A stretch of DNA of 21,102 bases from a virus. A program made the translations under genes and the position numbers. Every line of letters starts with the position of its first letter. Within the stretch, counting starts at the first letter, position 1. The notes beneath the pieces are model-generated. The model was given only the letters and a program-made list of their open reading frames with translations, was not told the origin of the DNA and ran no database searches. The stretch is from positions 1-21,102 of IMG/VR virus record IMGVR_UViG_3300045999_006958; one strand, given 5' to 3'. Shown piece after piece: positions 1,965-13,559 of the stretch.

Positions 1965-2735
1965 ATGGCCACCACCGTTCTGTCCGGCACGTCCGGCGCT
2001 CTCTACTACAAGCCCGCTGGCACCACCGGTTCGTTCGGTGAAGCTGGCGTCAACATCAGCACCGACGTCATCACGGTCGAGACCTACCTGAACTTCAAGG
2101 TTGGTGACCCCGTGAAATTCCGCGTGGTGAACAGCCAGACCGGCGGCTCCGGCACCGGCACGCTGCCTGCCCCCATCTCTGACGCCACCACCTACTACGT
2201 TCTCAGCTACACCGCTGCCACTGGTGCGCTGACCGTCTCCACCAGCGCCGGTGGCACCATCCTGGCCATCACCGACGACGGCACCGCCGTTGCCCCCAAC
2301 GAATTCGAGGTCTATTACGCCGACTTCGCCGTTGTGGGCCAAGTCCGCGACTGGAGCTTCGAGATCAGCCGCGCTGAAATCGACGTCACCACCATCGGCC
2401 AAACCCCTGGTCAGTACGTGCCCTTCCGCACCTACATCAGCGGCTTCGGCGACGGCACCGGCACCGCCACGGTCTACATGACCAACGAGGACGCCGCCCT
2501 GTCCAACCGCATGATCCAGGACGTGCTGCAGCGCCAGCAAGACGGCGCCGCCTTCAAGCTGTACACCGACCGGGTGTTCAGCGGCGGCAGCCTGAGCGAG
2601 ACCCTCAGCCGCTCGATCAGCTTCGACGCTGTGCTGACCTCCGCCAGCCTGAACATCAACCCCGACGACGCCCAATCGGTGACCGTCAACTTCCGCCCCG
2701 CTGGCACCCCCACCTTCGACTTCGCTCAATCCTGA
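1965..2735 (+). CDS. Major tail protein (tail tube subunit) with internal domain insertion
   Basis: The protein is 256 residues. The conserved tube-protein parts are the N-terminal MATTVLSGTSGALYYKP region and the segment from about residue 120 onward, VVGQVRDWSFEISRAEIDVT. The latter continues through GFGDGTGTATVYM and a helix (NRMIQDVLQRQQDG) and ends in a beta-rich tail with LTSASLNINPDDAQSVTVNF. Between about residues 35 and 115 sits a separate beta-rich module (VGDPVKFRVV, ATTYYVLSYT, GALTVSTSAGG) of a type also seen in phage fibre proteins. It probably forms a surface decoration on the tube. The gene has strongly GC-rich third positions and is followed by a strong terminator, both typical of a highly expressed structural gene. 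The insertion boundary is judged by eye. Confidence 0.85.
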   Translation: MATTVLSGTSGALYYKPAGTTGSFGEAGVNISTDVITVETYLNFKVGDPVKFRVVNSQTGGSGTGTLPAPISDATTYYVLSYTAATGALTVSTSAGGTILAITDDGTAVAPNEFEVYYADFAVVGQVRDWSFEISRAEIDVTTIGQTPGQYVPFRTYISGFGDGTGTATVYMTNEDAALSNRMIQDVLQRQQDGAAFKLYTDRVFSGGSLSETLSRSISFDAVLTSASLNINPDDAQSVTVNFRPAGTPTFDFAQS

Positions 2736-2760: not shown

Positions 2761-2788
2761 GACCCCGGCTTTACCGCCGGGGTTTTTT
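2761..2788 (+). terminator. Intrinsic terminator after the major tail gene
   Basis: A perfect 7-bp stem pairs CCCCGGC (2763-2769) with GCCGGGG (2776-2782) around a TTTACC loop. An A-T pair extends the base and six T residues follow (2783-2788). It lies 28 bases after the major tail protein stop. Partial read-through would give less mRNA for the chaperones than for the tube subunit. Confidence 0.9.
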
Positions 2789-2812
2789 ATTTCTAGTCCG
2801 CTACAGTAGTGC

Positions 2813-2833
2813 CATACCCAAATTTCTGGTATG
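2813..2833 (+). promoter_or_regulatory. Possible start-codon-masking hairpin of the gpG-like gene
   Basis: CATACC (2813-2818) can pair with GGTATG (2828-2833) around a 9-base loop. The right arm contains the whole ATG start codon (2831-2833). No clear Shine-Dalgarno sequence precedes this start. The stem is only 6 bp, so any translational control is speculative. Confidence 0.3.
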
Positions 2834-3172
2834 CCAGTTCCTGTCCGCGCCATTGACCGCCTCCGCAAGGCCGCCAACCTGGAGCCTGCCAAAAAGACCG
2901 TCACGCTTAGCGACGGTAGTGACTTTGAGATGTGGGTGACACCGCTGACCATGGCCGAGCGCGAACGCGCCCAAAAACAGGCCAAGTCCGACGACGCCAA
3001 CGCCTTCGCCCTCCAGCTGCTCATCACCAAAGCCCTGGACGACACTGGCGCCAAGATCTTCAACGCCGGCGAAATCGACGTCTTGAAGAACGAAGTCAAG
3101 GACAAGGACCTGCAAGCCCTGATGCTGGCGATCCTGACCGACGGCGAGGAGCCGATCGACCCAAAATCCTGA
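2831..3172 (+). CDS. Tail assembly chaperone, short form (gpG-like)
   Basis: The protein is 113 residues. It has a basic N-terminus (PVPVRAIDRLRKAAN), a beta segment ending in the sequence DGSDFEMWVTPLTMAERERA (the core of this family), and an acidic/helical C-terminal half ending DGEEPIDPKS. Its place between the major tail protein and the tape measure, and its overlap with a downstream -1 reading frame, identify it as a gpG-type chaperone. Such chaperones coat the tape measure protein and recruit tail tube subunits; they are absent from the mature tail. The stop TGA is at 3170-3172, just after a slippery heptamer at 3160-3166. The gene lies between two intrinsic terminators. Confidence 0.85.
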   Translation: MPVPVRAIDRLRKAANLEPAKKTVTLSDGSDFEMWVTPLTMAERERAQKQAKSDDANAFALQLLITKALDDTGAKIFNAGEIDVLKNEVKDKDLQALMLAILTDGEEPIDPKS

Positions 3173-3357
3173 GTGCCGAGCTTCGGAAAGACACTTGGCT
3201 CATGCTGCAATTCGGAGTCGCCAAGGAGCTAGGCAAAACACTTTCCGAAATCAGCACCACGATGACCGCCGAGGAATTGCTCGGCTGGAGCGCCTACTTC
3301 CAAATCCTGAACGAGGACCAGCAAAAGGAACTCGACAAGGCCAAACGCCGCCACTAA
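2831..3357 (+). CDS. Tail assembly chaperone, frameshifted long form (gpG-T-like)
   Basis: A -1 shift on C CCA AAA (3160-3166) joins the first 112 residues of the short form to 63 residues read from 3166 to 3357. The result is a fusion of about 175 residues. The added part starts ILSAELRKDTWLML and contains GKTLSEISTTMTAEELLGW followed by SAYFQIL. This is the T-domain pattern (a repeated 'tvxelxxxmtxxEfxxWxay' theme, DUF4035-like) that contacts tail tube subunits in lambda. The frame-1 reading frame upstream of the shift (from 2932) is not protein-like, so the T part has no independent start and depends on the shift. The final codons and the stop lie within the left arm and loop of the terminator at 3347-3372. 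Confidence 0.82.
3160..3186 (+). promoter_or_regulatory. Programmed -1 ribosomal frameshift site
   Basis: The heptamer CCCAAAA (3160-3166) is phased C CCA AAA in the gpG frame, an exact X XXY YYZ slippery sequence. Re-pairing to CCC AAA moves the ribosome into the open T frame. The zero-frame stop follows 3 bases later (3170-3172). Nine bases downstream a small hairpin can form: CCGA (3176-3179), loop GCT, TCGG (3183-3186). Only four pairs support this stimulator, so the heptamer is the strong evidence and the hairpin is tentative. Confidence 0.85.
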
Positions 3358-3372
3358 CCCTGGCGGCTTTTT
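3347..3372 (+). terminator. Intrinsic terminator between the chaperone and tape measure genes
   Basis: GCCGCCA (3347-3353) pairs perfectly with TGGCGGC (3361-3367) around a 7-base loop (CTAACCC); five T residues follow (3368-3372). The left arm encodes the last residues of the long chaperone, and the stop codon TAA lies in the loop. The T-run runs into a second near-palindrome, TTTACG-G-CGTAAA (3370-3382), just before the tape measure start at 3411. A ribosome finishing the long form would cover the stem, so translation of gpG-T could reduce termination. This coupling is an inference. Confidence 0.75.
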
Positions 3373-3410
3373 ACGGCGTAAACTGAAGTACCAGAGTGTG
3401 ACGCGGCGCC

Positions 3411-6400
3411 GTGGCCTACAGAGCCGATATTGAAATTGCGGTTCGCGGCGCACAAGAACTCAAGCGCCTGCAGAATGAAATTTCAGCCACCTCTAAGTTA
3501 GTTGACGGTTTAAATAACTATCTAGAAAACATAGGCACAGGAGGTATAGTAAGAAGCGTAAATAATTTAAAATCTGTAGTAGCAGACGCCGCAGAAGCGT
3601 TTAATAAAGCTGCTCTAGGTACAGATGAAGCTACGATTGCAGCCAGAAAATATGCTCAAGCTACTGATAGCTTAAATGCCGGCTTACGAGAACGTGCAGC
3701 GTTACTAGACAAAATAAATAGGCAAGAACGAGCAGCTGCTTTAGTGCGTGCAGGCGTAAATATGCCTGCTTCTCAACTCTTGCTTCCAGCAGCTGCACCT
3801 GGGGCCCCGGCAATGAGTGGCGGTGCCCGCCGCCGAATTACCGGCCCTGTGGAACGCCTTGGCGGCGCACGCACCGAAGACCAAGCTGCAATGGCCTTGC
3901 GCTTCGCGCAGGCTCTTGAAGAACAAGTACGCCCGTTAAGTCAGATACAGGCGCTATACGCGGGGATCGCCGGTCAAGCGGTAAAACTGCAGGGGATAAA
4001 GGCTCTGCCCGACTCCACAATGCTTAACGCTTCTGCAAGAGGCATTAAACAACTTGAACTAGGTCAAGACAGTTACAACCGCGAACTTAAAGAATCGGCA
4101 GACCGTATTCAGCAACTTGACCGACTTGAAGAAAGCCGTGCCCGTAGGGCGCGTAAATTACAAGATAGACAAGCATATTTTAACAACGAACCCGCATCAT
4201 CAGTAGCAGGTCCAGGAGGCTTTGGCACTGCTATGCGTGGTCGTGCTGGAGGCGCTATCAGTAGTGCAATTATTGGTGGCGGCTTTCCTCTACTGTTCGG
4301 TCAAGGAGCAGCTGCGGCAACAGGCGGTGCCCTTGGCGGTTTAGCCGGCGGTCTTCTCGGAGGAGGTTTCGGCTTCGCGCTTTCTATTGCTGGTACGGCT
4401 ATCGGAGATATAATTACACAGTCGGAAACATTAAATAAATCTCTGGCAAATCTTAATTCTAGTTTGTCTTCAACTGGCAACACATCGACTACAACGGCAG
4501 ATGACATAAAGAGCCTGGCAAAAACACTGCAAATAACAAATGACGAAGCTCTAAAGCTAGTAAATACTTTTAGCCAGTTCGGAGACGCCCAAACGCGAGA
4601 GGCTTTGGCAACGCTGTTTGGGGGCGTTGGAGGAGCAGCTACATTTGAAGCTATTGCCCGCGCTGGAATAGACGAGAAAAACGCGCTGTCCTCTATATTT
4701 GAACTGCGTAAGTACATTGGTACTGAAGCTGCCAATCAATTAGCGTTACAGCTAAATACAGTTGGAGCAACGCAAACTCAAGCCGCTCTACTAAAACTTG
4801 TAGTTGAAAGAAGCATACAAAGTGCCGTAGCTGCTAAGAGTCAAGTGCAGTTTACGGATAATCTGCTAAGTACGTGGGAAAATATCGTTGCAGGCATTGC
4901 AGGCGCATTAAGCCTAGCTATTCAATTTATACAAAAAATGCGCGAGGGTAGTTTACTGAGACTACCCTTCCTGGATCAAGTTGCTGCTGCGCTGGAAGGT
5001 GTAAGAGCCCGCAGCGGTAAGCAAATTGCTACACAAAATGCGGCTGAACTTGAAAAACAAATGCGGGCTGCTGTTGAAGCAGCAATGAGAGGTTTGACGC
5101 AAGAAACAGGAGCTTTGGGATTACAAAGTGCTTTACAGGATCAGTACACAGCAAAACCCAAGGGACCTGAAAGTCGTGCGGGGCAATTAAAAGAAGAACT
5201 TGCAGCAATAGTAGCCATCGGTGAAGCAGAAGACCGCATCAGAGATTTGCAGTTCCAGGGTAGGGACTACACAGCATTGGCAGCAGAAGAAGACAAAATT
5301 AGAGCAGATATTGAACGCGATCGCGTAAAAGCTCTTTTAAGTGCAAATTACGCTAGCGAAAAAGGTCTAATTAACCAGATTGCCCTGGCACGTCTTGAAA
5401 ACTTGCGTTTAGAAACAGCGGACAAGGCTCGGGCAATCAATCAGAAGAAATTTGAAGACGAGTTGCAGGCAGCAGCTGCTGTAAGGCAAAGCGTGCAGTC
5501 GTTTGTGCAGATTCGTAAAGAGCAAGAGTTCCAAGCTCAATACGCTAAAACGTACAACCGCCTTGTTACCGAAGGTTTGCTGCCCGCAGAGGCACAACGA
5601 ATTGCTAACTACGAAAAAATGATTGCACAGCAACTAGATGCTGTGGCAGAGCAAATTAAAATTACGGACCTTGCAATTATTGAGGCTAAGGCCCGTGGTG
5701 CAAGCACCGTTGAACTAGAAAAACAACTCAAAATCTATAAAGATCAGCAAGATGCTATTAAAGGTGAAGCTGCAAAAGGCCCTGGTGAAGGCCCTACAGA
5801 TCGCCAACGTCTAGAAGATCAAATAGCAAAACTACGCGGCGAGCTAAACACGCTAACTGATCCCATTAATCAAATTACAGCTGCTGCTGAAGGCATTGGA
5901 TCCGCCTTTGCCAACTCGTTCAAGGGAGTTGTATCTGGCGCCATGACCGCCCAAGAGGCGCTGTCCTCGTTCTTCCAAAGCGTGGCCGACCGCTTCCTAG
6001 ACATGGCGGCCCAGATCATCGCCAAGTGGATCGAAATGACGATCCTCAACAGTGTCCTTAACCTTTTCCCCGGCGGCGGAATGGGTCTTGGGGGTGCTAC
6101 GGCCGCTGCGGGCAAATTAAATCCTGCTGTCGGATTTGGGGTTGGCCCTATTGGATTTAGAGCAGCAGGCGGTCCTGTATCTGCTGGCTCGCCCTACATC
6201 GTCGGCGAAAAAGGCCCCGAGTTGTTCGTCCCAGGCCGCAGCGGCGGTATCGTGCCCAACGACAGCCTTGGAATGGGAAGCGCCAACGTCGTGGTGAATG
6301 TGGACGCCAGCGGGTCTAGTGTGCAAGGCGATGGCAACCAGGCCAACCAGCTCGGTAAAGCCATCGGCATCGCGGTCCAGCAAGAACTCATCAAACAAAA

Positions 6401-6425
6401 ACGCCCCGGAGGCTTGCTCGCCTAA
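3411..6425 (+). CDS. Tape measure protein (gpH-like)
   Basis: The protein is 1004 residues and starts with GTG at 3411 (MAYRADIEIAVRGAQELKRL). It has an N-terminal helical region. A Gly/Ala-rich hydrophobic stretch spans about residues 283-335 (AIIGGGFPLLFGQGAAAATG, then GGLLGGGFGFALSIAG) and may insert in the host membrane during DNA entry. Long charged coiled-coil segments lie at about 570-810. A lambda-type C-terminal domain covers about 826-886 (FKGVVSGAMTAQEALSSFFQ, ADRFLDMAAQIIAKWIEM). Near 917-945 is the terminal signature AAGGPVSAGSPYIVGEKGPE with LFVPGRSGG. At about 0.15 nm per residue the tail would be near 150 nm. Most of 3480-5880 is AT-richer, with different codon use from the GC-rich start and end, a mosaic pattern. 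A HIP1 octamer lies at 5317-5324. Confidence 0.92.
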   Translation: MAYRADIEIAVRGAQELKRLQNEISATSKLVDGLNNYLENIGTGGIVRSVNNLKSVVADAAEAFNKAALGTDEATIAARKYAQATDSLNAGLRERAALLDKINRQERAAALVRAGVNMPASQLLLPAAAPGAPAMSGGARRRITGPVERLGGARTEDQAAMALRFAQALEEQVRPLSQIQALYAGIAGQAVKLQGIKALPDSTMLNASARGIKQLELGQDSYNRELKESADRIQQLDRLEESRARRARKLQDRQAYFNNEPASSVAGPGGFGTAMRGRAGGAISSAIIGGGFPLLFGQGAAAATGGALGGLAGGLLGGGFGFALSIAGTAIGDIITQSETLNKSLANLNSSLSSTGNTSTTTADDIKSLAKTLQITNDEALKLVNTFSQFGDAQTREALATLFGGVGGAATFEAIARAGIDEKNALSSIFELRKYIGTEAANQLALQLNTVGATQTQAALLKLVVERSIQSAVAAKSQVQFTDNLLSTWENIVAGIAGALSLAIQFIQKMREGSLLRLPFLDQVAAALEGVRARSGKQIATQNAAELEKQMRAAVEAAMRGLTQETGALGLQSALQDQYTAKPKGPESRAGQLKEELAAIVAIGEAEDRIRDLQFQGRDYTALAAEEDKIRADIERDRVKALLSANYASEKGLINQIALARLENLRLETADKARAINQKKFEDELQAAAAVRQSVQSFVQIRKEQEFQAQYAKTYNRLVTEGLLPAEAQRIANYEKMIAQQLDAVAEQIKITDLAIIEAKARGASTVELEKQLKIYKDQQDAIKGEAAKGPGEGPTDRQRLEDQIAKLRGELNTLTDPINQITAAAEGIGSAFANSFKGVVSGAMTAQEALSSFFQSVADRFLDMAAQIIAKWIEMTILNSVLNLFPGGGMGLGGATAAAGKLNPAVGFGVGPIGFRAAGGPVSAGSPYIVGEKGPELFVPGRSGGIVPNDSLGMGSANVVVNVDASGSSVQGDGNQANQLGKAIGIAVQQELIKQKRPGGLLA
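4945..4968 (+). repeat. Inverted repeat inside the tape measure gene
   Basis: AGGGTAGT (4945-4952) and ACTACCCT (4961-4968) form a perfect 8-bp stem with an 8-base loop inside the coding sequence (around SLLRLPF). No T-run follows. The role is unknown and it may be chance. Confidence 0.35.
5317..5324. other. HIP1 octamer (GCGATCGC)
   Basis: Second copy, inside the tape measure gene in an AT-richer block. Confidence 0.5.
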
Positions 6426-7659: not shown

Positions 7660-8369
7660 AACTCAGCAAAGCCATCCAAGAAGCTGCCCTGGAGCACGCC
7701 AAGGCGGAATTTCCAAGGGAATCCTGCGGTCTGGTCGCCGTGGTCAAAGGCCGCAAACGGTATTTCCCCTGCCGCAACATGGCCGAAACACCAGACGAAC
7801 ACTTTGTGCTGGACCCGGCTGACTACGTTGCTGCCGAGGAACAGGGCGAAATCGTGGCGGTGGTACATAGCCACCCGAAGACCAACCACGCCCCATCCCA
7901 AGCTGACCGCGTTGCCTGCGAAAAATCTGGCCTGCCCTGGCACATCGTCAACCCTCAGACCGAACAGTGGGGCTACTGCGAGCCCGAGGGTTTCGAGCTG
8001 CCCTACGTGGGACGCGAATTCGTCTTCGGCGTTGTGGACTGCTACACCCTCTGCCGCGACTGGTACAACCGCGAATTCGGCCTCAACCTCAGCGACTACG
8101 ACCGCCGCGACCAGTTCTGGCTCAAGGGTGAGAATTTATACCTAGACAACTTCGCCAACGAGGGTTTTTACCCAATCCCCTTGGAAGAACTGCAGTACGG
8201 CGACGCGATTTTGATGCAGCTCCAGTCACCGCTGCCCAACCACGCTGCCGTCTACTTGGGCGACCAGTTGATTCTGCACCACCTACAAGGCCGACTCAGT
8301 AGCCGTGATCTGTACGGCGGTTATTATTTGAAGAGCACCGCCCGAGTCCTGCGGCATGAAAGTCGTTAA
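7656..8369 (+). CDS. Tail tip protein gpK-like: JAMM peptidase plus NlpC/P60 hydrolase
   Basis: The protein is 237 residues with two catalytic modules. Residues 1-110 form a JAB/MPN domain: E22 in PRESCGL, then VVHSHPKTNHAPSQAD with H71, H73, S81 and D84, the metal-binding HxH...S..D signature. Residues 115-237 form an NlpC/P60 domain: C129 in GVVDCYTLCRDWY is the nucleophile and H196 in PNHAAVYLG its partner, followed by LILHHLQGRLSSRDLYGGYY. In lambda-like phages this protein helps tip assembly, and its peptidase likely cuts peptidoglycan at infection. All key residues appear intact. It is coupled to gpL by ATGA and overlaps gpI by 14 bases. Confidence 0.93.
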   Translation: MKLSKAIQEAALEHAKAEFPRESCGLVAVVKGRKRYFPCRNMAETPDEHFVLDPADYVAAEEQGEIVAVVHSHPKTNHAPSQADRVACEKSGLPWHIVNPQTEQWGYCEPEGFELPYVGREFVFGVVDCYTLCRDWYNREFGLNLSDYDRRDQFWLKGENLYLDNFANEGFYPIPLEELQYGDAILMQLQSPLPNHAAVYLGDQLILHHLQGRLSSRDLYGGYYLKSTARVLRHESR

Positions 8370-9003
8370 GGTCTACGGCGCACTCCGCAAAAAGCTCGGC
8401 CAGTGCCGCTTCCAGTTTGAAGCCGACACGCCTGCCCAAGCCCTCAAGGCACTCTGCGTCAACTTTCCCGGCCTTGAAAAGTGGCTGCTGGATAGCGAGC
8501 AAGACGGTGTTGGCTACCGCGTAACAATCGGCAGAGAAAAAGTTACTGAGCAAAACGCAGTTTTGATTGCGGCACCATTTAGTGAGCGCGAAGTTTTCAG
8601 TATTACGCCTGTAATTGCTGGTGCCGGCCAAGGCGCAGGACAGATTTTTGCAGGCATCGGCCTTATTGCGCTGGCTATTGTCGCCGGTCCAGCCGGTGCT
8701 GGCTTTTTAGGTTTAGGCGCTGGCATTTTTTCGGGTGCTACAGCCGCAACTATCTCTACAACCTTGGGTCTAGTAGGAGCGTCGCTTGTTCTTGGAGGCA
8801 TTGCCCAGGCAATTTCACCTGCACCGGTGCAATCTTCTGCGTCGTTTGAACGAGGGCGCGACGCGGCAAAATTTGAGTCTTTTACGTTTTCCGGCATCGT
8901 TAACACCGCCAAGCAAGGTTTGCCCGTGCCAATCGCCTATGGGCGTGTATTTGTTGGCTCCGCTGTTCTCTCCAGCGGCCTTGATGTTGACCAACTGATA
9001 TGA
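8356..9003 (+). CDS. Tail tip assembly protein gpI-like
   Basis: The protein is 215 residues; lambda gpI is 223. It opens with a ubiquitin-like beta-grasp segment (MKVVKVYGALRKKLGQCRFQ, TPAQALKALCVNFPGLEKWL). A strand follows, VGYRVTIGREKV, then a hydrophobic Gly/Ala-rich centre (about residues 90-150: AGQIFAGIGLIALAIVAGPA) and a conserved end NTAKQGLPVPIAYGRVFVGS. This is the Lambda_tail_I pattern. gpI acts with gpK and gpJ at the tip and is thought to be lost or cleaved in the mature particle. It begins inside the end of gpK and its TGA (9001-9003) forms ATGA with the J start. The middle of the gene, about 8520-8900, is less GC-rich than the neighbouring genes. Confidence 0.9.
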   Translation: MKVVKVYGALRKKLGQCRFQFEADTPAQALKALCVNFPGLEKWLLDSEQDGVGYRVTIGREKVTEQNAVLIAAPFSEREVFSITPVIAGAGQGAGQIFAGIGLIALAIVAGPAGAGFLGLGAGIFSGATAATISTTLGLVGASLVLGGIAQAISPAPVQSSASFERGRDAAKFESFTFSGIVNTAKQGLPVPIAYGRVFVGSAVLSSGLDVDQLI

Positions 9004-12000
9004 CACGGATTGTTGGCTCTGGCGGTGGTGGCGGTGGCGGTTGCTTCCTAGGGCACACTCTTGTTGCAATTCCCGGCGGCACGCGCCGCATTGACGAGCT
9101 GCAGGCCGGTGATCTTGTCCTGAGTTTTGACGACGAGGGCAAACTGCATGAAGCCAAAATCCTCAAAGTCCACGAACACGAAGGCGAGCGCGTCATTCGT
9201 TACACGCTCTGGGGCGGCGAGCATCTTGATGCCACCCCTAACCACTGGGTCCTCAACCAGTTCAATACCTTCGTCGAAATCGACACGCTCGGTTCCGACG
9301 ACTGCCTCGTTGATGCCAACAACCACCTGCGCCCAATCGTCGGCAAAACCGAATTCTGCACTGGCACTGTCTACAACCTGACGGTCGAAGGCCACCACAC
9401 CTTCATCGCCAACAACATCCGCGTCCACAATGCCGGCCTAGGTCTCGGCATTGCTGGTGCTGGCGGCGGAGGCGGTGGCGGCGGTAAAGGCGGCGGTGGT
9501 GGCGGTGGCTCCAGCCGCACCCCAACAGAAGCCGACGACTCACTCCAGTCAGTTCAATACGCCAGCGTGCTGGATCTGCTGTGCGAAGGCGAAATTGACG
9601 GCATCGAAAACGGCGAAAAGGGTATTTATCTGGAAGGCACACCCGTCCGCGACGCCGCCAACAACGCCAACTTCGAGGGCTACACAGTCGTCACCCGCAC
9701 TGGCACGCAAGCCCAGAGTTACATCAGCAACGCGAATGGCACCGAAAGCGAGGAAGGCGTCAACGTTGAAGTTGTTAATGCCACGCCAGTTGTTCGCACC
9801 ATCACCGATTCCGATGTGGATCGTGTGCGCGTCACGCTGCAGGTCCCATCACTGCAGATCATCGAAGATGACGGCGACATTGTTGGCCACAGCGTCCAAG
9901 TCCGCATCCAAGTCCAGTACAACGCCGGCGGCTATACAACCGTTGTAGACGACACGATCAGCGGCAAAACCAGCAACCGCTATCAGCGCGACTACATGAT
10001 CCCGCTGTCTGGCGCATTCCCCGTTGACATCAAAGTCATTCGCGTCAGCGCCGACGAATCGAGCACCAAACGCCAAAACCAAACCTACTGGTTCAGCTAC
10101 ACCGAAATTATCGACGAAAAACTGCGCTACCCCAACAGCGCCCTTTGTTATCTGCGGTTTGATTCCCGCCAGTTCGACTCAATCCCGACCCGCAAGTATC
10201 TGATTCGCGGACAAAAAATCCAACTGCCCAGCAACGCCACCGTCAATACCACCACTTACCTGGGTCGCGTTACCTATTCCGGCGTCTGGGACGGCACCTT
10301 CGGCGCCGCAACTTGGTGTAACGATCCAGCTTGGTGCTTGTGGGACTTGCTGACCAACACCCGTTACGGCGCCAGCATCCCCACCAGCAGCCTGGATCGC
10401 TATGACTTCTACGCCATCAGCCAATACTGCAACGCCCTTGTTGACGACGGCAAAGGTGGCTTGGAACCACGCTTCTCCTGCAACCTGTTGATCAACAGCC
10501 GCGACGAGGTTTACAACGTCATCCAAGAGATGACCAGTCTGTTCCGTGGTATCGCGTACTACGGCGCCGGCTCGCTCGTCCTCCAGCAGGACAAACCCAC
10601 CGACTCGCAATATCTGCTGGGACCCAGCAACGTTGTTGATGGTCTTTTTATCTACAGCGGCACATCACAAAAAGCCCGCCACAGCGTCGCCACTGTTGCT
10701 TGGCAGTCCTACGACACTCTTGGCGAAGTTGAGTACGAATACATCGAAGATGCAGACGCTGTAGCCAAATACGGCATCATCAACAAAGACATCAAAGCCT
10801 TGGGCTGTTACAGCCAAGGTCAAGCTCACCGCGCTGGTAAATGGGCACTCCTTAGCGAACAAAACCTAACCGAAACTGTCACCTTCTCGGTGTCAATCGA
10901 CAGCGGCATCATCCTGCGCCCTGGAATGGTGATTGACATTGCCGACCCGATGAAGACGGGTACACGTCGCAGCGGTCGCGTCAGTTCTGCAACCACAACA
11001 GCAATAACCATCGACAACAACAGTCTGACCGTCAACGTATCTAGTAGCCCAACTATTTCGGTCTTGATGCCAACCGGCTTGGTTGAAACACGCACCATTG
11101 TTAACATTTCAGGCCGCATTATTACAGTCAACAGCGCCTTCAGCGAAGCCCCCAACGCCAACGCAATCTGGCTCATCCAAACCAGCGACATCGAAGCACA
11201 ACAGTTTCGCGTTCTTAATGTTGCTGAATCGGAAGACGGCATCTACGGCGTCACCGCCCTGCAGTACAACAGCAGCATTTACAACGCGATTGAAAGCGAC
11301 AATACTCTGACCACCCGCGACATCAGTAACCTCAGCGATCCACCTGATCCGGTCAGCAGCATTAGCGGCACTGAATACCTTTACCAAGACGGGCAAGGTG
11401 TATTTTCAGGCTTCAGTCTTAGCTGGATCAGCCCCAAGGAACGTGTTTCTGAGTTCCGCATCAAATATCGAATCGACAATGACAACTGGCAACAAATCAA
11501 TACACCATCACCATCAACAAAAATTCTTGATACACGCCCCGGAACGCTATACATCCAAATTCAGGCATACAGTTACCTGAACAAAGGCAGCACGATTGCA
11601 ACCGCGCAATTTTCGCTTGTCGGCAAAACCGCTGTCCCCGGCAACGTCCAAAACCTAAGTTTTGAGGCCATCAACGCCAACTCCGGTCGCCTGCGCTGGG
11701 ACGAGACTGTTGATCTTGATGTGAAGGTCGGCGGCAAAATCCACATCCGCCACAGCAACCTGACCGACGGCACGGCTAGCTGGAGCAACAGCGTTGACCT
11801 AATCCCCGCCAAATCCGGCAGCGCCACCGAGGCCATCATCCCGCTGGTGGAAGGCGAGGTGCTGGTCAAGTTTGAGGACGATGGAGGCCGCCAAAGCGCC
11901 AGCGAAACCAGCATCATCATCGACCTGCCCGACACGCTGGCACCGCTCACGCTAATCAACCGCCGCGAAGATCAAGACGCGCCACCATTCCAAGGTACGC

Positions 12001-12752
12001 GCACCAACGTTTTCTACAGCGACGAATTTGACGCCCTGACGCTGGATGGCTCGGAATTATTTGACACCGTGCTTGACGTGGACGCCATGGTTACGTTCGA
12101 CGTGATTGGTGACGTTCAAAGTTCCGGCAGTTACAACTTCGCCAACACCGTTGATTTTGGCAACACGTTCTCCGTTGATTTCAGCCGTTACTTCGTCACC
12201 CGTGGTTATTTTCCCAGCGACCTAATTGACAGCCGTTTGGCCGAAGTAGACACCTGGAGCGACTGGGACGGCGGTGTGATCGACGCGGTGAACGCCACCC
12301 TTGAACTCCGCAGCACTACCGACAACCCCAGCAGCAGTCCGACTTGGAGCGCATGGCAGCCGTTCGTTAATGGCACCTTCCGTGGCCGTGGCTTCCAGTT
12401 CCGCACCACACTGACCAGTCACGACATTGCCGAAAACATCCTTGTGGATGAGCTGGGTTATCTGGCCAGCGTCCAACGCCGCACCGAGCAAAGCGTCGCC
12501 GCCATCTCCGGCACCACCAATACCGGCGTGACCTTCACCCACCCGTTCTTTACTGGGACGGCCAGCATCGGCGGCTTAAATGCCTATTTGCCTAGCGTCG
12601 GCATAACGGCGCAAAACCTGCAGGCTGGCGACTACTTCCAAATCAGCGCCGTCACCGGAACCGGCTTCACCATCAGCTTCTACGACTCCAGTAACAATCC
12701 CGTAACGCGCCAGTTCACCTGGAGTGCTAGCGGATACGGGCGAGCCGGTTAA
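9000..12752 (+). CDS. Central tail tip / host-specificity protein gpJ-like with N-terminal Hint domain
   Basis: The protein is 1250 residues and starts on the ATGA shared with gpI. Order: leader MTRIVGS plus seven Gly (1-14); Hint domain C15-N144; second Gly-rich linker (145-170); and from S171 the lambda J body. The body shows SSRTPTEADDSLQSVQYASV, LDLLCEGEIDG, VRTITDSDVDRVRV, QNQTYWFSYTEIIDEKLRYP, TYSGVWDGTF, WCLWDLLTN, YAISQYCNALVDDGKGG and YSQGQAHRAGKWAL, each with a close counterpart in lambda J. About 780-965 are two fibronectin-III-like repeats. The last about 70 residues (FTHPFFTGTASIGGLN to WSASGYGRAG) are a small beta domain common in J-type C-termini. J forms the tip hub and central receptor-binding spike. 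The embedded Hint domain is not part of ordinary J. Confidence 0.92.
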   Translation: MTRIVGSGGGGGGGCFLGHTLVAIPGGTRRIDELQAGDLVLSFDDEGKLHEAKILKVHEHEGERVIRYTLWGGEHLDATPNHWVLNQFNTFVEIDTLGSDDCLVDANNHLRPIVGKTEFCTGTVYNLTVEGHHTFIANNIRVHNAGLGLGIAGAGGGGGGGGKGGGGGGGSSRTPTEADDSLQSVQYASVLDLLCEGEIDGIENGEKGIYLEGTPVRDAANNANFEGYTVVTRTGTQAQSYISNANGTESEEGVNVEVVNATPVVRTITDSDVDRVRVTLQVPSLQIIEDDGDIVGHSVQVRIQVQYNAGGYTTVVDDTISGKTSNRYQRDYMIPLSGAFPVDIKVIRVSADESSTKRQNQTYWFSYTEIIDEKLRYPNSALCYLRFDSRQFDSIPTRKYLIRGQKIQLPSNATVNTTTYLGRVTYSGVWDGTFGAATWCNDPAWCLWDLLTNTRYGASIPTSSLDRYDFYAISQYCNALVDDGKGGLEPRFSCNLLINSRDEVYNVIQEMTSLFRGIAYYGAGSLVLQQDKPTDSQYLLGPSNVVDGLFIYSGTSQKARHSVATVAWQSYDTLGEVEYEYIEDADAVAKYGIINKDIKALGCYSQGQAHRAGKWALLSEQNLTETVTFSVSIDSGIILRPGMVIDIADPMKTGTRRSGRVSSATTTAITIDNNSLTVNVSSSPTISVLMPTGLVETRTIVNISGRIITVNSAFSEAPNANAIWLIQTSDIEAQQFRVLNVAESEDGIYGVTALQYNSSIYNAIESDNTLTTRDISNLSDPPDPVSSISGTEYLYQDGQGVFSGFSLSWISPKERVSEFRIKYRIDNDNWQQINTPSPSTKILDTRPGTLYIQIQAYSYLNKGSTIATAQFSLVGKTAVPGNVQNLSFEAINANSGRLRWDETVDLDVKVGGKIHIRHSNLTDGTASWSNSVDLIPAKSGSATEAIIPLVEGEVLVKFEDDGGRQSASETSIIIDLPDTLAPLTLINRREDQDAPPFQGTRTNVFYSDEFDALTLDGSELFDTVLDVDAMVTFDVIGDVQSSGSYNFANTVDFGNTFSVDFSRYFVTRGYFPSDLIDSRLAEVDTWSDWDGGVIDAVNATLELRSTTDNPSSSPTWSAWQPFVNGTFRGRGFQFRTTLTSHDIAENILVDELGYLASVQRRTEQSVAAISGTTNTGVTFTHPFFTGTASIGGLNAYLPSVGITAQNLQAGDYFQISAVTGTGFTISFYDSSNNPVTRQFTWSASGYGRAG
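9021..9038 (+). repeat. Left copy of the in-frame direct repeat flanking the Hint domain
   Basis: GGCGGTGGTGGCGGTGGC encodes six Gly just before Cys15. An identical 18-base copy in the same reading frame is at 9492-9509. The copies are 471 bases (157 codons) apart, so recombination between them would remove the Hint domain cleanly and keep the J frame open. Confidence 0.85.
9042..9431 (+). other. Hint (intein / BIL-like) domain inside gpJ
   Basis: This is residues C15 to N144 of gpJ, 130 residues. Block A is CFLGHTLVAIPGG with the nucleophilic Cys and is followed by IDELQAGDLVLSFDDEG. Block B is LDATPNHWV, giving T79-x-x-H82. Block F is VYNLTVEGHHTFIANN and block G is IRVHN with H143-N144. 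The length fits a mini-intein or bacterial intein-like domain with no homing endonuclease. The +1 residue is Ala, not Cys/Ser/Thr, so classical splicing lacks its second nucleophile. A-type BIL domains share this trait and carry out N- or C-terminal cleavage and sometimes splicing. All first-step residues look intact, so activity is plausible but not shown. Confidence 0.9.
9492..9509 (+). repeat. Right copy of the in-frame direct repeat flanking the Hint domain
   Basis: This is identical over 18 bases to 9021-9038 and lies in the second poly-Gly linker of gpJ, just before the lambda-like J body begins at residue 171. Poly-Gly codons make some repetition expected, but the exact 18-base identity in frame is notable. 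Confidence 0.85.
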
Positions 12753-12782
12753 ACTTCTACAAGATGACTTGCGCCTGACGCT

Positions 12783-13559
12783 GTGGCACAGCACGATTAT
12801 GTGATCAGCAATGGCACAGGTGCTGCTGTCCGTTCTGATCTGAATGGTGCGCTGGGCGCCATCGCCACCAACAACAGCGGCGCCACTGAACCAACCCCCG
12901 CCTACGCCTATCAATGGTGGCCTGATACGACCACCGGCTTGCTGAAGATCCGCAATGCCGCCAACTCCGCGTGGGTGACAGTTGGCACACTGGCCTCTGC
13001 CAACCTCGGCCTGCTGACCACCACCTCCGCAGCCAGCACCTATCTCGCCTTGGCGGGCGGCACCATCACCGGCGCCCTTGAGATTGGCTCCGCTGGTTCG
13101 TTGGTATTTGAGGGCAGCACCGCTGACGGCAACGAAACCACACTGGCGGTCACGGACCCAACCACAGACCGCACGATCACGCTGCCAGATGCCACTGGTA
13201 CGGTGCCGCTGCTCGGCTTGGCGCAGAGTTATACCGCCGCTCAGCGTGGTGCGATCACTGCCCTGACCTCAGCCAGCACCGTCACTCCCGACTTTTCGCT
13301 GGCCAACAATTTCAGTCTGACCTTGGGGCATAACGCCACCTTGGCGAACCCGACCAACCTGACCGCCGGCCAAAGTGGTGTCATCTTCATCACACAAGAT
13401 GCCAGCACCGCCTATACGCTGGCGTTCGGTAGTTACTGGGACTTCAGTGGCGGCACCGCCCCTTCTGTCACGAGCACGCTGTCGGCGGTGGACTGCTTGG
13501 TCTACGCGGTCCGCAGCAGCACCAGCATCCACGCCCAACTGATCACGAACCTGAGCTGA
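12783..13559 (+). CDS. Tail fibre-like protein with C-terminal module shared with the last fibre
   Basis: The protein is 258 residues; the start is GTG at 12783, 30 bases after gpJ. The N-terminal domain (about 1-75: HDYVISNGTGAAVRSDLNGA, then YAYQWWPDTTTGLLKIRNAA) is a recognisable phage fibre N-terminal module. It is followed by a repeat-like linker (YLALAGGTITGALEIGSAGS, TTDRTITLPDATGTVPL), a style seen in trimeric fibres. Residues 149-258 (AQRGAITALT to AQLITNLS) are a beta-rich module with a close copy in the fibre gene at 20072-20569, about 60% identical by eye. It lies directly behind gpJ and probably attaches to the tip as a side fibre. Receptor specificity cannot be read from sequence. 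Confidence 0.72.
   Translation: MAQHDYVISNGTGAAVRSDLNGALGAIATNNSGATEPTPAYAYQWWPDTTTGLLKIRNAANSAWVTVGTLASANLGLLTTTSAASTYLALAGGTITGALEIGSAGSLVFEGSTADGNETTLAVTDPTTDRTITLPDATGTVPLLGLAQSYTAAQRGAITALTSASTVTPDFSLANNFSLTLGHNATLANPTNLTAGQSGVIFITQDASTAYTLAFGSYWDFSGGTAPSVTSTLSAVDCLVYAVRSSTSIHAQLITNLS
13227..13556 (+). repeat. Fibre C-terminal module, copy 1
   Basis: This encodes residues 149-258 of the first fibre. It is paralogous to 20234-20566: shared blocks include AQRGAITALT, TPDFS-ANNFS, TLANPTN, TAGQSG, ITQD and TLAFGS, and both end in AQL-TNL. The copies are about 7 kb apart. Confidence 0.85.

Follow-up and report, generated by a model that had tools for sequence, protein, structure and literature searches.

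Siphophages probably have to make the tail tube protein, the tail assembly chaperone and the tape measure protein at widely differing levels. In lambda, these amounts are thought to be mainly a matter of translation, and we know of neither such terminators nor such −10-like elements as are described below inside its late operon at this cistron. In T7, the T-phi terminator lies behind the capsid gene, and late promoters lie ahead of later genes. The cyanosiphovirus group studied here seems to rely instead on punctuating transcription, fitting a terminator and a promoter into fewer than 60 nt. From the comparative evidence, two terminator–promoter pairs, T1–P1 and T2–P2, probably divide the tail module so that the tube, gpG with gpG-T, and the tape measure are each transcribed as a unit of their own.

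The arrangement appears to be new and its parts are known; comparative support for the parts is good and their function is predicted. For mapped transcription starts of S. elongatus, the available part of the source gives a −10 element, Ta-aaT, and no −35 motif; it also states that a strong −35 is missing in Prochlorococcus MED4 and that Rho is absent from S. elongatus and Synechocystis (PMC3219970). Termination at the E. coli terminator tR2 fell from about 90% to less than 10% once a stop codon had been placed 5 bp ahead of it, and the effect was undone by uncoupling translation, as described in the accessible portion of that report (PMC4824070). No description of terminator–promoter pairs at the tail chaperone of a cyanosiphovirus was found in the literature extracts consulted, and the KBS2A genome announcement is silent on promoters and terminators (PMC3751600).

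The window, a virus fragment of 21,102 bases from IMG/VR, carries a lambda-like tail module (Table 1). Its nearest named phage is Synechococcus siphovirus KBS-S-2A, followed by S-2L; the tube protein is 70.7% identical to that of KBS-S-2A and the gene order is shared. The source virus is presumably cyanobacterial, judging from the host of KBS-S-2A (Synechococcus WH7803). A scan of bacterial genome contigs found no gpG relatives, so no host could be assigned from prophages. The window gpG also matches phrog_20784 (unknown function, E 1.2e-32). As in lambda G/G-T, an X XXY YYZ heptamer followed by an open −1 frame lies between the tube and tape measure genes. No Rfam family matched the window at gathering scores.

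Table 1. Features of the tail module in the window, with the basis of each assignment.
Feature	Position	Strand	Basis or remark
Major tail (tube) protein gene	1965..2735	+	phrog_158 major tail protein, E 4.8e-4
T1, predicted intrinsic terminator after the tube gene	2761..2788	+	stem and T run, conserved in relatives
P1, −10-like hexamer TACAGT, 23 nt before gpG start	2802..2807	+	TANNNT conserved behind T1
gpG, tail assembly chaperone	2831..3172	+	phrog_344 tail assembly chaperone, E 1e-4
−1 slip heptamer C CCA AAA	3160..3166	+	sequence
−1 frame extension, T part of gpG-T; stop TAA 3355-3357	3163..3357	+	phrog_337 tail protein, E 3e-6
T2, predicted terminator; 5' arm formed by the last gpG-T codons (CGC CGC C..)	3347..3372	+	stop codon in loop
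P2, −10-like hexamer TAAACT, 26 nt before tape measure start	3379..3384	+	TANANT behind T2
Tape measure protein gene, GTG start	3411..6425	+	phrog_1538 tape measure, E 6.7e-12

Relatives were collected by scanning viral contigs with the gpG of the window and with that of KBS-S-2A, taking from each scan the best 80 loci of a longer list. Further loci came from a tube scan (80, partly the same), an S-2L scan (3) and two named phages. Once duplicates were removed, the 230 loci together with the window came to 174 distinct regions, with the window as L001 and three regions lacking a complete gpG. T1 and P1 were counted over 164 listed loci and T2 over 169, the window included in both.

A strict terminator caller (6 or more pairs, 5 or more G-C, T-rich tail) made four calls in the whole window. 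T1 and T2 are the only ones on the + strand; the other two are − strand calls within coding sequence. The sequence-only reading had described strong stem-plus-T-run structures at exactly these two places, one before and one after gpG/gpG-T, with the second folded through the gpG-T stop codon; the calls and the coordinates bear this out, the TAA lying in the T2 loop. Both hairpins have the features of an intrinsic terminator, namely a G+C-rich stem of about five or more pairs, a short loop and a T run directly behind. A looser scan of the first 10 kb gave 24 matches against 13.7 ± 3.5 in shuffles, so weak matches there mean little.

The T1 stem (2761-2784) begins 25 nt after the tube stop codon and consists of 9 pairs, 7 of them G-C, closed by a 6-nt loop. 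It is trailed by TTTTATTT, giving six consecutive T when the last two stem bases are included, since the stem ends in TT. The hairpin energy is −18.0 kcal/mol; folding of the surrounding 41 nt gives z = −4.24 (1 of 200 shuffles equally good), and the hairpin is retained in a 95-nt fold (z = −2.53). T1 was called in 132 of the 164 listed loci and starts 16-30 nt beyond the tube stop in 128 of them. The 32 uncalled loci comprise 21 with a gap of 4-8 nt, seven with a hairpin lacking the T run, two with a gap and no hairpin, and two (L210, L212) whose imperfect stems escape the caller and were counted as T1 by eye, which gives 134 T1 loci. With a slightly stricter caller, a terminator was found in 129 of 143 tube–gpG gaps (segments of at least 50 nt containing both codons), compared with 1 of 429 gaps after shuffling and 16 of 2853 segments of 100 nt taken at random.

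The T1 stems also vary in a way that keeps their pairing. Among 31 distinct stems, pairs 4 to 7 appear as several standard pair types, and when arms were swapped between stems only 26% paired fully and 80% of cells were paired. Since the count was anchored at a fixed stem position and the stems are perfect by construction, the arm swap is better evidence than the 212/212 paired cells of the native stems. MAFFT with RNAalifold recovered just 3 pairs, because loop lengths differ, with 270 of 270 cells paired against a shuffle mean of 267. Taken over the relatives, these comparisons point to a T1 stem kept under selection.

Relatives show several states of the tube–gpG gap: terminator with promoter, a hairpin with neither T run nor promoter (L170-L176), and a gap of 6-8 nt, the last in L177-L196 with TGATAACTAATG. 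From the sequences, the series from L170-L176 to L177-L196 looks as if T1 and P1 had been lost stepwise. Loci of the S-2L type (L147, L228, L229) have a 4-nt gap and no T1.

Behind T1, a TANNNT hexamer (P1) lies 20-27 nt before gpG in 136 of the 164 listed loci and in 192 of 3305 control windows, a comparison that, like the other control rates, overstates independence since the sampled rows are related and the pattern was chosen after inspecting the sequences. It is present in 134 of 134 T1 loci (two of them imperfect; groups assigned by hand), in none of the seven with a hairpin lacking the T run, in none of the 21 with almost no gap, and in both loci with a gap and no hairpin (L162 and L163, TAAAAT at 23 nt). 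Among distinct T1–gpG segments, it occurs 20-27 nt before the start in 97 of 97, at exactly 23 nt in 55, as 13 different hexamers; its T, A and T are set by the pattern, and the finding is that a match is always there. In much of the window's clade CTAnTCCGCTACAnTA is kept behind T1 while its surroundings drift. KBS-type relatives carry TAAAGT, TAAGCT, TAGAGT, TAGATT and similar hexamers at this place; TATTTT and TAACAT in such rows are probably wrong picks, owing to an uncertain gpG start codon. A hairpin over P1 (CGCTA-CAG-TAGTG in the window) was considered and dropped, as it is not kept in relatives with TACACTAT.

The T2 stem (3347-3367) has 7 pairs, 6 of them G-C, a 7-nt loop and five T in the trailing TTTTTACG. 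At −12.1 kcal/mol it is clearly weaker than T1. The 41-nt stretch around it gives z = −2.85 (3 of 200 shuffles equally good) and 112 nt give z = −1.68; in the longer stretch the centroid retains the hairpin, and in the minimum-energy fold it is absent, its 5' arm pairing nearer the tape measure start. T2 was called in 92 of the 169 listed loci, with an identical offset from the stop in 90. RNAalifold found one double-change pair, the rest being nearly invariant (309 of 315 cells paired, shuffle mean 307), so that conservation is evident and covariation slight.

In a FastTree tree of 139 distinct tube+gpG rows, which has many open forks, 74 T2 rows fall within one group of 78 (support 100) that includes the window; as judged from this tree, T2 is a clade trait. 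Four changes suffice, for example a gain after the L137 split and losses in L140, L141 and L024, the last of which keeps the stem with a run of only four T. The arm codons are CGC CGC in all 92 loci with T2, and since CGC makes up 404 of the 454 arginine codons in the gpG of these loci, the 5' arm comes almost free; for the same reason, synonymous-codon selection was rejected as evidence for T2. In loci without T2 the last codons are usually still arginines, in many different codons. About a dozen bases behind the stop (GGCGGC and the T run) would have been enough to make a terminator in the T2 clade. We read the overlap of T2 with the stop codon as compaction first, and as regulation only if shown.

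Upstream of the tube gene, a leader element at 1904-1964 of the window, with GCTANNNTGTANTAAGCCGGGCAGTGCCCGCC, is kept in 64 of the 71 T2 loci that have upstream DNA, and its core GCCGGGCAGTGCCCGCC is present in only 2 of 57 loci lacking T2. Where present, it occurs at a single place per record (long pieces were searched), it has no Rfam match, and it is possibly a tube promoter with a structured leader.

P2 occurs also in loci without T2. TANANT lies 22-29 nt beyond the gpG-T stop in 92 of 92 loci with T2, and in 64 of the 77 without T2 its first base is that of the stop codon, as in TAG-ACT; in the latter group the stop supplies TA, which leaves A[ACG]T behind TAA or TAG as the informative letters. 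KBS-S-2A itself lacks T2; it has TAAAGT ahead of gpG and, starting with the gpG-T stop, TAAACT ahead of the tape measure gene. Three of the 13 remaining loci show TAAGCT at this place. The pattern was found in 144 of 2035 control windows of 48 nt. The tape measure gene starts 22-27 nt away in 53 of 53 distinct segments with T2, and 21-24 nt away in 29 of 31 without it (174 in the other two), so that P2 lies 21-27 nt before the start in 82 of the 84 distinct segments with both placed. Spacing could be scored in 85 of 146 distinct segments, those with a tape measure N-terminus like that of the window or KBS-S-2A, one of which has no hexamer; the other 61 have no recognised tape measure start. 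Stop codons appear to do double duty in this group, as part of a hairpin in the T2 clade or of a −10-like element in relatives.

Elsewhere in the window, inspection by eye showed a third hexamer of this kind, the TAAACT at 12750-12755, which starts with the stop of the tip attachment gene and lies 27 nt ahead of the next gene, at 12783. The tip attachment protein (gpJ-like) itself opens, before its FNIII-A_GpJ domain, with a Hint/intein-like stretch (9036-9431; Intein_splicing E 1.1e-6, Hint E 1e-5, both below the Pfam cut-offs), a candidate for splicing or cleavage.

P1 and P2 both have the TANNNT form of a cyanobacterial −10 element. A TTGACA-like hexamer was found in none of the representatives, the corresponding place being occupied by the terminator (T1, T2) or, in loci without T2, by coding sequence, and a generic sigma-70 scan called neither P1 nor P2. 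In the KBS-S-2A genome, 11 of the 64 annotated genes, two of them on the − strand, are preceded by a TANA[CG]T whose end lies 16-30 nt upstream, a count that includes the gpG and tape measure genes which suggested the pattern; control shifts gave means of 1.0 (19 upstream) and 0.9 (18 downstream) with a maximum of 4. Besides gpG, CDS 5663 and the portal gene CDS 20524 follow a terminator and carry the hexamer.

KBS-S-2A (L231) also encodes a full sigma-70 type factor with regions 1.2, 2, 3 and 4 (7779-8708, − strand). Relatives of this factor occur in 4 of 5 records without T2 and in 0 of 11 with T2, where records may be incomplete; Sigma70_r2 was likewise not found in the window, whose record may be incomplete too. 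A phage sigma factor reading P1 and P2 was rejected on this count: both groups keep the hexamers, the factor was not found in the 11 T2 records, and a host sigma factor is the simpler reading.

From the hairpins and their conservation, from T1 stems that vary yet stay paired, and from hexamers at near-fixed distance from the start codons, we infer promoter function of the hexamers and termination in vivo, and with these the start sites and relative strengths. Since TANNNT without a −35 resembles mapped cyanobacterial promoters, transcription punctuation is the best reading of the locus. Polymerase coming from the tube gene would mostly stop at T1, and a new transcript would start about 7 nt past the P1 hexamer, leaving a leader of about 16 nt before gpG; T2 and P2 would repeat the stop and restart for the tape measure gene. 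Each mRNA would then depend for its level on its own promoter and on how much transcription leaks past the terminator. Punctuation accounts for the mostly joint presence or absence of T1 and P1, for the survival of P2 in loci that lack T2, and for the near-fixed distance from hexamer to start codon. T1 is missing from 30 and P1 from 28 of the 164 listed loci, and T2 from 77 of 169, so none of them is essential.

The sequence-only reading had proposed stepwise attenuation, falling from tube to chaperone to tape measure. In this alternative, a single promoter upstream of the tube gene serves all three cistrons, leaky T1 and T2 produce falling mRNA levels, and the hexamers are minor or no promoters. 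The gene order and the copy numbers that one would expect fit it, T1 is indeed the stronger hairpin in the window, and in the S. elongatus phycocyanin operon a partial terminator gives a ratio of 6:1, as stated in the available text (PMC3219970). What survives of the proposal is that both hairpins are conserved and of terminator type. However, a ladder needs one upstream promoter for three cistrons, and each following gene has its own −10-like hexamer 20-27 nt ahead, so the ladder is unsupported as stated. These hexamers are conserved at near-fixed spacing behind both terminators and are kept in most loci without T2 and in two without T1; moreover, T1 and P1 are mostly lost together, which a pure attenuator would not predict. 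Attenuation as the whole explanation is therefore rather unlikely, and leakage through T1 and T2 may add a partial ladder to the punctuation proposed above.

The earlier suggestion of translation-coupled termination at T2 is sterically sensible but weak. Here, a leading ribosome that has frameshifted would reach the stop inside T2 and block its folding, so that transcription continues into the tape measure gene, while ribosomes stopping at 3172 would leave T2 free; it would make T2 a frameshift-gated switch, a coupling added by the T2 clade onto an older promoter with its −10 at the gpG-T stop. If it held, the initiator chaperone fusion and the tape measure mRNA would come from the same transcript. 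The stop codon lies within the ribosome shadow of the stem, being in the loop, with the 5' arm in the last codons and the stop 185 nt past that of gpG. The tR2 case described above offers a precedent for repression by a ribosome near a stop codon, and T1, by contrast, is mostly outside the 10-15 nt given in the part of that source at hand (PMC4824070). On the other side, T2 is uncalled in 77 of 169 loci, and 69 of these 77 keep the slip heptamer, as do 80 of the 92 with T2, so neither slip site nor T2 depends on the other; the CGC CGC arm, in addition, needs no special selection. The lambda gpG:gpG-T ratio is given as 30:1 in the accessible text (PMC5009743), and at such a ratio no more than about 3% of leading ribosomes would be in a position to cover T2. 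With 90% basal termination, mean readthrough would then rise merely from 10% to about 12.6% (0.1 + 0.8/31, own arithmetic), about 23% of the read-through transcripts coming from shifted ribosomes (own arithmetic). We regard ribosome gating, and equally its addition to an older promoter by the T2 clade, as improbable. In 12 of the 92 T2 loci (L022, L035, L049, L089 and others), C CCC AAG replaces the standard heptamer, and frameshifting there may proceed by the P-site tRNA alone.

That the hairpins mainly stabilise the 3' end of a longer transcript or mark where it is processed, and are not terminators, is the least probable reading: seven loci (L170-L176) do keep a strong tube–gpG hairpin without a T run, but these also lack P1, and runs of at least five T stand behind T1 in 131 of 132 and behind T2 in 87 of 92 called loci, partly by construction as the caller demands a T-rich tail.

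The punctuated layout offers testable start and stop sites, as well as a natural test of ribosome-gated termination through frameshifting. Compared with known systems, it resembles T7 in having a terminator directly behind a high-copy structural gene and promoters before later genes; T7 uses promoters for the phage polymerase, whereas the window has host-type −10 hexamers around a frameshift chaperone. Unlike lambda, which is not known to have either, the cistron has a terminator and a −10-like element on both sides; what it shares with lambda G/G-T is a −1 slip heptamer close to where the first frame ends, located between the tube and tape measure genes, as the consulted part of the source describes (PMC5009743). 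In phiX174, several promoters and terminators set transcript levels, which is similar to the window, but in the portion of the report available a promoter comes first and is followed at once by a terminator (PMC11527146), whereas in the window the terminator comes first. The S. elongatus phycocyanin operon likewise has an intrinsic terminator between ORFs that sets stoichiometry, and, unlike in the window, the accessible sections mention no promoter behind it (PMC3219970). The tR2 construct shares with T2 a stop codon near enough for a ribosome to block the hairpin; as presented in the text at hand (PMC4824070), it is an engineered reporter in which ordinary translation reaches the stop, whereas at T2 only frameshifted ribosomes would. 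Among cyanosiphoviruses, 19 sigma-70 promoters and 22 intrinsic terminators have been predicted for P-SS2, according to the available part of its description (PMC2784084).
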